Part shown: positions 23,004 through 52,433 of the stretch, piece by piece
Layout: each line of letters begins with the position of its first letter
Numbering within the stretch: position 1 is the stretch's first letter
Source of the DNA: Chloroflexota bacterium
GTDB lineage: Bacteria; Chloroflexota; Dehalococcoidia; Tepidiformales; Tepidiformaceae
Length of the DNA: 64,000 nucleotides
NCBI GenBank assembly: GCA_016191435.1
Contig: JACPOQ010000001.1
Coordinates: forward strand, 62,001-126,000
Direction: 5' to 3'
The notes under the pieces: model-generated
What the model saw: only the letters and a program-made list of their open reading frames with translations
The model's database searches: none
Told to the model about the DNA's origin: nothing
Position numbers and translations under genes: made by a program

Positions 23004-23183
23004 GGTCGCCGCGGTCTCGCGCTTTGCGCTCGGCCGCTGATCCACGTGTGCCCGCATTCGAACCTCGGTCATTGGTCCCGGAACGTGGGAGGTGGTCGCC
23101 GCGGTCTCGCGCTTTGCGCTCGGCCGCTGATCCACGTGTGCCCGCATTCGAACCTCGGTCATTGGTCCCGGAACGTGGGAGGT
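23004..23183 (+). repeat. Perfect 90-bp tandem repeat, two copies
   Basis: Units 23004-23093 and 23094-23183 are identical. Each begins GGTCGCCGCGGTCTCGCGCT and ends GAACGTGGGAGGT. The unit contains a CATTCGAACCTCGG stretch and a GGTCCCGGAACGTGGGA stretch. The identity suggests a recent duplication. Confidence 0.92.
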
Positions 23184-50633: not shown

Positions 50634-51614
50634 CTACTCGGTCCTTTCCGTGCGGCGGACGGCGAGGGCGGAAATGGCCTCGAGGCAGACGCGGTGCGCG
50701 ACTTCGGCGGTGATGCCGGCGCTGTCGTAGGGCGGCGAGACTTCGACCACGTCCATGCCGGCGAGCTCCACTTTGAGGACGATTTCGCGGACGGCGCGGA
50801 GGAGCTCGCGGGCGGAGAGGCCGCCAGGTTCGGGAGTGCCGGTGCCCGGCGCGAACGCGGGGTCGAGGACATCAACATCGACGGAGAGGTAGATGAGGTC
50901 GGGGCCGTCGAGCGCTTCGGCGATGGCGTCGGTAAGCACGGCGTCGAAGCCACGGCGTTCGATCTCGGCCATGAAGTGCGTGCGCAGGCCATGTTCGCGC
51001 ATCCATTCGATCACGGCGGGCGGCGGCCAGTAGCCACGGAGCCCCACCTGCACGAAGTTGCGGCCGGCGACGTGGCCGGCCTCGATCAGGCGGCGCATCG
51101 GCGTGCCATGGCTGAGCGAGACGCCCCAGGACTCGTCGGCGGCATCGGCGTGCGCATCGAAGTGGACGATGCCGACGCGGCGGCCGTGGTGATCGGCGAC
51201 GGTGCCGGCGGCAGGGTAGGTGATGGAGTGGTCTCCGCCGAGGACGATGGGGATGCAGTTGGGGGCGGCTTCGAATAGGGCCGCGAGCTTCGCCCGGATG
51301 GCGTCGTGGCTGCGGGGGATATCACCGGGGATGCAGGCGGCGTCGCCGGCGTCGATGGCGGTGAGGTGCTTGAACGGCTCGACTCCGAGGCCGAGGTGGT
51401 TGAGCGACCACTGTGTCAGGTTGCCGGCGGCGCGAATGGCGCGCGGGCCGAAACGGGCGCCGGGGCGGTGCGTGACGGCGACATCGAAGGGCGCGCCGAC
51501 AATGGCGATATCGGGGGCAGCGGCGCGGATTGCCTCTGGTTCGTGGACCCACGGGAGGTGAAGGAACGTGGAGATATCGGCGTACGCGGGGTGGAGGCGG
51601 GGGTCGGTGGACAT
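50634..51614 (-). CDS. speB: Agmatinase/ureohydrolase family protein
   Basis: 326 residues from ATG 51614. Manganese ligands are all present: PIVLGGDHSITYP (His), VGIVHFDAHADAADES (DAHAD) and LIYLSVDVDVLDPAFAPGTG (SxDxDxxDP). N-terminal DIAIVGAPFDVAVTHRPGAR is the family opening. It hydrolyses agmatine or a related guanidino compound to an amine plus urea. Exact substrate among arginase, agmatinase, guanidinobutyrase and proclavaminate types cannot be fixed; agmatinase is the commonest for this length. Confidence 0.9.
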   Translation of the reverse strand: MSTDPRLHPAYADISTFLHLPWVHEPEAIRAAAPDIAIVGAPFDVAVTHRPGARFGPRAIRAAGNLTQWSLNHLGLGVEPFKHLTAIDAGDAACIPGDIPRSHDAIRAKLAALFEAAPNCIPIVLGGDHSITYPAAGTVADHHGRRVGIVHFDAHADAADESWGVSLSHGTPMRRLIEAGHVAGRNFVQVGLRGYWPPPAVIEWMREHGLRTHFMAEIERRGFDAVLTDAIAEALDGPDLIYLSVDVDVLDPAFAPGTGTPEPGGLSARELLRAVREIVLKVELAGMDVVEVSPPYDSAGITAEVAHRVCLEAISALAVRRTERTE

Positions 51615-51620
51615 GGGTGA

Positions 51621-51650
51621 AGTTCCAGGTTCCGGGTTCCGAGTTCAGAG
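51621..51650 (+). repeat. AGTTCCAGGTTCCGGGTTCC word cluster
   Basis: Repeats of GTTCC(G/A)(G/A)G directly upstream of the agmatinase start codon (divergent side); same family as 50422-50487. Confidence 0.65.
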
Positions 51651-51881
51651 TGTAAGCCGCTGCCGGCGCTCGTGGGCGCCTGGCGGCGGGCAAGTCCTGA
51701 AGACCCGGCGGCCCAGCTCGAATTTGGTGTTCCCCAGGGCCCGCCGAAGCGGGGGTTGGCCCCGGGTGTGATCGTCGAGGGACTGCCGCGGCGGGGGTTC
51801 ACGGTCCAGAATTCGAAACCACCTGAGTCCAGCGCGTGCGGGCGGGTGTAGGATTCGCGCGATCGAGAGCGCCGGAGGGGC

Positions 51882-52433
51882 ATGGTGGGCGAGAAAGAGA
51901 CAGCGGCGGGGTTCCCGGGCGCCCGCACGGTGGGCCAGGCGGCCGCCGGCGGTACAGGGCCGGAAACCTTCGCGAAGGCCGCGAGCGGGTCGCAGAGCGA
52001 CCCAAAGAGCCAGGGCGACGCCGCCGCCGGCGGTGGGGCCGCCCCGGAGGCCGCCGCGGCTGCGATCGTCAAGAGCAAGAGCAACATCACGAACAATCGC
52101 GAGGCGAGCGACGAAGACGGCGGCGGGTCGCCGGACGCCGCTGAGGGCGGCATCGTCAAGAGTAAGAGCAACATCACGAACAATCGCGAGGCAGGCGACG
52201 ACGATAGCGATACGTTGTCGGACCCGGCGGCTGACGCGTCGCGGGCAGCGAACCTGAACCTCAGCAAGAGCAACATCAACTGCGAGGCCGGGGGTATGCC
52301 TGCGGGCGGCCCGGAGCCGGAAGAGGCGGTGAACCTGAATTCGAGCAAGAGCAACCGGGTCGCGACCGATGCGCCCGGCGGCGGGCCTGAGCCGGACGAA
52401 TCGACGAACCTGAACTCCAGCCGGAGCAATTAA
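51882..52433 (+). CDS. Small disordered protein with five KSxSN-type repeats
   Basis: 183 residues from ATG 51882 with GGAGGGG just upstream. No signal peptide or transmembrane helix. An Ala/Gly-rich leader of about 60 residues precedes five spaced motifs: IVKSKSNITNNREA (62-75), IVKSKSNITNNREA (91-104), NLNLSKSNINCEA (124-136), NLNSSKSN (151-158) and NLNSSRSN at the very C-terminus (176-183). Linkers of 12-20 residues are acidic and Gly/Pro-rich. The first two repeats are nearly identical in DNA, the others diverged. The design looks like a multi-core precursor peptide or a repeat-tag protein. Function unknown. Confidence 0.75.
   Translation: MVGEKETAAGFPGARTVGQAAAGGTGPETFAKAASGSQSDPKSQGDAAAGGGAAPEAAAAAIVKSKSNITNNREASDEDGGGSPDAAEGGIVKSKSNITNNREAGDDDSDTLSDPAADASRAANLNLSKSNINCEAGGMPAGGPEPEEAVNLNSSKSNRVATDAPGGGPEPDESTNLNSSRSN

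Follow-up and report, generated by a model that had tools for sequence, protein, structure and literature searches.

A disordered multicore protein from a Tepidiformaceae genome as a candidate substrate or partner of a membrane-anchored enzyme with a predicted PafA/Dop-like fold

To our knowledge, only one bacterial system, pupylation, is established in which a member of the carboxylate-amine ligase superfamily joins a ribosomally made protein to lysine residues: PafA attaches Pup to lysines of other proteins. The GCS2/YbdK-type members of this superfamily act on small molecules and are not known to modify a protein encoded next to them. Iyer et al. reportedly predicted, in 2009, systems in which an amidoligase resembling glutamine synthetase is paired with a peptide. 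Those systems, which are cited in PMC3511204, share with the one described below the general notion that peptides or proteins made by ribosomes are modified by ligases of the glutamine synthetase (GS) fold; PMC3511204 also discusses a proposed descent of Pup from modified bioactive peptides. Graspetides, including those with multicore microviridin-type precursors (PMC8939145, PMC5934393), offer a further parallel in the combination of a leader and several cores per precursor with an ATP-dependent ligase alongside. Literature searches on the core strings, on RiPPs of carboxylate-amine ligases, and on further PafA-like systems returned no description of the system considered here.

The window analyzed in this work is a stretch of 64,000 nucleotides from a member of the Tepidiformaceae (Chloroflexota). 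One of its open reading frames (ORFs) encodes a small protein with five short SxSN cores (Table 1) that probably belongs to a hitherto undescribed bacterial peptide- or protein-modification system and that we consider likely to be a substrate or an obligate partner of a membrane-anchored PafA/Dop-like enzyme. Translation probably begins at the GTG codon rather than at the preceding ATG, as the spacing of the GGAGG sequence (6 nt) fits better there; the Ala/Gly leader of the original prediction is present, but with this start it is headed by the conserved (M)GEKET. Scans against Pfam, NCBIfam, and PADLOC matched the window protein to no family, family scans of its relatives likewise gave no match that names any of them, and a structure prediction with four aligned relatives returned a disordered chain (pLDDT 47, pTM 0.11).

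Table 1. Features of the core-protein gene (window coordinates)
Feature	Position	Strand	Remarks
ORF, disordered multicore candidate substrate protein	51882..52433	+	183 aa with the ATG start; 182 aa with GTG 51885, the preferred start
GGAGG, ribosome-binding-like sequence	51874..51878	+	3 nt 5' of ATG 51882, 6 nt 5' of GTG 51885
N-terminal leader (M)GEKET	51885..51902	+	common to enzyme-adjacent candidate substrates of relatives and to an enzyme-linked peptide elsewhere in the same genome
Core 1, IVKSKSNITNNREA	52065..52106	+	core alignment, profile, shuffling
Core 2, IVKSKSNITNNREA, the same 14 residues as in core 1	52152..52193	+	core alignment, profile, shuffling, tandem repeat
Core 3, NLNLSKSNIN	52251..52280	+	core alignment, profile
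Core 4, NLNSSKSN	52332..52355	+	core alignment, profile
Core 5, NLNSSRSN, exactly C-terminal	52407..52430	+	core alignment, C-termini of relatives

A spurious ORF, or a neutral low-complexity repeat in GC-rich DNA, might be suspected from the Ala/Gly/Asp-rich composition, from the 87-bp tandem duplication that contains cores 1 and 2, and from the longer antisense ORF (51416-52429) that overlaps the gene. Such an origin is highly improbable, given the conservation of the sense-frame cores in two phyla, the conserved gene context in relatives, and the purifying selection on the sense frame. In a close pair of relatives (G008 and G030), dN/dS is 0.24 in the sense frame and 0.16 in the cores, with 0.34 in the catalytic part of the enzyme described below, as against 0.4 to 2.2 in the antisense frames, and the sense frame is therefore the gene. 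Core genes of this kind are easily misannotated: the G008 core gene lies antisense within a long ORF (L022:12348-15041, plus strand; 897 aa) favored in naive gene calling. Minus-strand terminator-like sites within cores 1 and 2 were taken as chance occurrences and not as genuine terminators.

The original prediction of five regularly spaced cores, the first two nearly identical, holds. The pattern [STK][KRH]SN is matched five times in the window protein; 20,000 shuffled sequences averaged 0.03 matches, with 2 as the highest count. The cores follow each other at 25 to 34 residues. A core profile run against the genome of origin (3.8 Mb, 98 contigs) recovered all five window cores and nothing outside the window ORF. 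Among 43 aligned cores, the Asn is found in all 43, the Ser before it in 41, and a Ser or Thr ahead of the basic position in 42, the basic residue itself being Lys, Arg, or His; these cores are conserved across genera and in two phyla, whereas the linkers vary. Neither a conserved acidic residue nor an invariant Lys emerges from the alignment, so that a ring inside the core is not indicated. In Chloroflexota relatives, the other core proteins of the MGEK type, six in number, end at a core or within four residues after it.

Homologs of the window protein were found in the same genus (G001) and the same family (G008, G030, and G002), as well as elsewhere in Dehalococcoidia and in Acidimicrobiia, and in none of them does the motif fall within a recognized folded domain. 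They include a 208-aa MGEKET protein with seven cores from the Dehalococcoidia metagenome-assembled genome (MAG) SSF39, a 549-aa protein with six cores from the Acidimicrobiia MAG nzgw82, and, as a weak match in the search for relatives, an 81-aa MGEKEA protein of G018 with two cores and the end ...INTSHSNIKNL. A second core protein of G018 stands in tandem with a core-free VGEKEQ paralog; in this genome, two tandem MGEK/VGEK peptides (L163:2507-3082; G018:C2:846506-847081) carry another repeat, (G)(F/H)IKMGSVEGE, which may resemble the N-terminus of Hcp-type tube proteins, and one of the two also has two SxSN cores. Cores also occur without the MGEK start. A 642-aa protein of G002 (L005:19-1944, minus strand) contains 12 SxSN cores of several subtypes and an HEVTHTVQQ segment, and two proteins of G452 (L141 and L149; the genome of locus L046) have TTII(K/R)SKSNITNNR straight after an apparent signal peptide, one of them running on into a collagen-like Gly-x-y region. 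That these MGEK-less proteins occur only in enzyme-carrying genomes hints at a role in the system for the cores as such. The HEVTHTVQQ segment had raised the idea of an eCIS effector, which was rejected: PF13699 was matched among core-bearing proteins only in the G002 homolog, over 16 residues and at 13.7 bits (cutoff, 22); eCIS_core genes are found in core-less genomes too; and the genuine eCIS_core loci of these genomes have no SxSN cores. Homolog searches of viral contigs and plasmids found none, and 11 matches of a KSKSNITNN DNA pattern in viral contigs, all in short frames, were attributed to chance.

In G001, G008, and G030, the gene directly 3' of the core-protein gene encodes a protein of 650 to 730 aa. 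Its catalytic domain of ∼400 residues (motifs GhExEY/F, STHVSVA, and RPRPGRLELC) is followed by a linker that carries RxGK motifs, by a transmembrane helix, and by a stalk rich in Pro and Thr, which in G001 comes with a PKD domain. In Pfam scans of 18 such enzymes, no family accounted for the catalytic part: neither PF03136 (Pup_ligase, at E 0.1) nor GCS2 was matched, and the sole match was to one weak, unrelated DUF in one member. NCBIfam gave no match for the four enzymes tested, and a sequence search of PDB chains with the enzyme profile gave chance matches only. The relationship to PafA and Dop is thus revealed solely by the predicted fold. The catalytic domain of the SSF39 enzyme, as modeled by AlphaFold (pLDDT 82.4, pTM 0.77), matched Dop best (Foldseek E 7e-9; VIA Z 19.4; 314 residues aligned, rmsd 3.4), followed by PafA (Z 18.4), YbdK (17.4), glutamate-cysteine ligases (12 to 16), and glutamine synthetases (about 10). 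The Dop and PafA matches extend into the C-terminal part (as far as model residues 365 to 390), whereas that of YbdK, with which the superfamily core is shared, stops at residue 295. The fold is predicted to be of the GS/PafA-Dop type, including the C-terminal domain, and not ATP-grasp.

G-x-E-x-E, D71, E76, STH, and R-x-R-x-x-R-x-E are invariant in the 18 enzymes. An hhalign comparison with PafA/Dop was weak (E 0.0034, probability 9.6%), with the GhExE motifs aligned and D71 placed at the Asp loop of PafA; the functions ascribed to GhExE and to the conserved Asp follow PMC7947786 and PMC3511204. The enzyme family may share with the pupylation enzymes a GhExE ATP-binding motif and, on a second motif, the invariant Asp and Glu; it is probably an amidoligase of the carboxylate-amine ligase superfamily and may work like PafA or Dop. 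The membrane anchor, the stalk, and the RxGK linker set it apart from them. The linkers ahead of the membrane helix hold 22 RxGK motifs (0.44 expected by shuffling, with a maximum of 4), and the truncated L043 (SSF39) has two more. The catalytic domain and the part beyond the helix contain none, and the enzymes L048, L069, and L070 lack the motif altogether. Positive charge is higher before the membrane helix than after it, which suggests an N-in topology with the catalytic domain in the cytosol.

The core-protein gene lies directly upstream of the enzyme gene in G001, G008, G030, and SSF39 and is divergent from it in nzgw82. At the window locus no enzyme gene adjoins the core gene, just as originally stated for a maturase, but a candidate enzyme does so in these five relatives, and the genome of the window has an ortholog of its own (E 2.5e-83) on contig C95, directly behind a core-free VGEKETAGL... 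peptide. The window protein is therefore a candidate for a second, unlinked substrate, the C95 enzyme standing beside its paralogous core-free peptide. A third VGEK match in this genome (C39) heads an unrelated lysine-rich ORF and was discarded. Every genome found to have cores also has this one enzyme family. Among 38 genomes of the bacterial family, several of the genomes studied being fragmented MAGs, the carriers of the enzyme and of core proteins are the same six (G000, G001, G002, G008, G018, and G030), a coincidence of 1/C(38,6) = 3.6e-7 if the two were independent. Among 400 Chloroflexota genomes, the enzyme was found in nine and cores (E < 0.005) in two of those nine, and among 296 Acidimicrobiia genomes cores were found only in G454, an enzyme carrier.

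Irrespective of cores, a strict start-GGN-GAR-AAR pattern is seen at 17 sites within 1 kb upstream of 21 enzymes (0.17 expected), as against 4 sites in 500 kb elsewhere; the loci are not all independent. Starts of other types precede the enzymes at L041 (MSEK), L049 (MVEK/MVVEK), and L065 (VEK/MEK), and an MGEK protein is divergent from the enzyme at L051 (nzgw82). Altogether, 20 of the 21 loci, in two phyla, adjoin a small protein with an E-K start, the sole locus without one being L052, where the enzyme frame is broken. On this evidence, the enzyme is commonly partnered by a small protein whose start contains E-K, in most cases as M-G-E-K, and whose body is hypervariable. The element common to nearly all candidate substrates is thus the N-terminal M-x-E-K and not the core. 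SxSN cores represent one type of body, and GIAI(D/G)EEGVQ and IKMGSVEGE repeats represent others. Since SxSN cores are missing from many enzyme-linked proteins, the enzyme can do without them.

The idea that the window protein is a multicore precursor or a repeat substrate thus gains from the conserved cores and variable linkers, the predicted disorder, and the ligase-fold enzyme next door in relatives; there is good support for a repeat substrate on which a modifying enzyme acts. The proposed analogy to graspetides is not supported: the leader motif is a different one, the modeled ligase is GS/PafA-Dop-like, and the cores lack the pattern of an acid with a hydroxyl group or Lys from which ester or amide rings are made. 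No ATP-grasp gene was recognized beside the core proteins, some of whose neighbors were scanned with family models. A RiPP-like pathway of another kind, in which the MGEK leader would guide the ligase to make amide, ester, or other changes in the SxSN cores and a protease would free several small peptides, would suit the leader, the repeated cores between acidic Gly/Pro linkers, the C-terminal position of the last core in Chloroflexota MGEK proteins, and the adjoining enzyme. It is doubtful nonetheless, considering the absence of an invariant Lys, Asp, or Glu from the cores, the different repeats or none in other substrates of the family, the cores of G452 behind apparent signal peptides of exported proteins, and the fact that no conserved protease or exporter was recognized beside the loci, some of whose neighbors were scanned with family models.

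Tagging in the manner of Pup, the ligase using Glu3 to link the MGEK proteins to lysines on other proteins of the cell, would agree with Dop and PafA being the best structural matches, C-terminal part included, and with substrates that are ribosomal, small, and predicted to be disordered, as Pup is. This reading is also questionable, as the enzyme is membrane-anchored and the substrates, some with repeated cores, are conserved at the N-terminus (M-x-E-K), whereas the mark of Pup is a C-terminal Gly-Gly-Glu/Gln. The latter is absent: Chloroflexota core proteins end at a core or just after it, and an end in VGG is seen only in the L066 and L067 peptides. Further, none of the searched Chloroflexota carriers has a protein of the PF03136 family, and hence none has a recognizable PafA, Dop, or depupylase. 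The cores might, alternatively, be short binding motifs of a multivalent scaffold that remains unmodified and has the enzyme as a functional partner; their presence in MGEK-less proteins (the 642-aa protein of G002 and the exported ones of G452) fits that arrangement, but it appears unlikely in view of the MGEKET start common to the window protein and enzyme-linked peptides and of the confinement of core carriers to enzyme carriers.

For the window protein as substrate or obligate partner of the enzyme, the mechanism might run as follows. The membrane-anchored ligase, its catalytic domain on the cytosolic side, would act on the window protein; by analogy, the Glu of M-G-E-K would be the natural acyl donor and the lysines of the RxGK linker the natural acceptor. 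Coupling of this Glu to an RxGK lysine is possible but on the doubtful side, and M-x-E-K could instead serve for recognition while the modification falls elsewhere. The outcome would be a disordered chain of SxSN cores displayed at the membrane or loaded for release. Tentatively, this would represent a third kind of protein modification in the PafA/Dop superfamily, one that works without Pup or the proteasome and occurs in both Chloroflexota and Actinomycetota, in which a membrane-anchored ligase couples disordered proteins via an N-terminal Met-Gly-Glu-Lys tag to lysines of its own RxGK linker or of other proteins, the SxSN cores being one of several types of cargo. Against the preferred explanation stand the separation of the window gene from the enzyme gene, the core-free substrates, the MGEK-less core proteins, the RxGK-less enzymes, the weak profile similarity to PafA/Dop, and the fragmented state of several MAGs.

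The enzyme and the MGEK proteins may thus belong together as ligase and substrate within the carboxylate-amine ligase superfamily, and a new kind of tagging is conceivable. If so, an enzyme family with the predicted PafA/Dop fold, unnamed in Pfam and NCBIfam, would have its own MGEK-start substrates in two phyla, including some genomes without Pup ligases. Such a family would bear on the origin of pupylation, provide a second testable ligase-substrate pair besides it, and make the proposed descent of Pup from modified bioactive peptides directly testable. The two systems coexist in the actinobacterial enzyme carriers G452, G453, G454, and G455, which also have canonical Pup_ligase-family genes. 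The L066 and L067 peptides (from G226 and G149), with MGEK or VGEK starts, contain long poly-Ser/poly-Gly runs, end in ...EVGG, and are encoded beside an enzyme that has its stalk encoded in another frame. Elsewhere in the window, a 90-bp sequence stands twice in perfect tandem (23004-23183; 100% identity) and overlaps a small minus-strand ORF.
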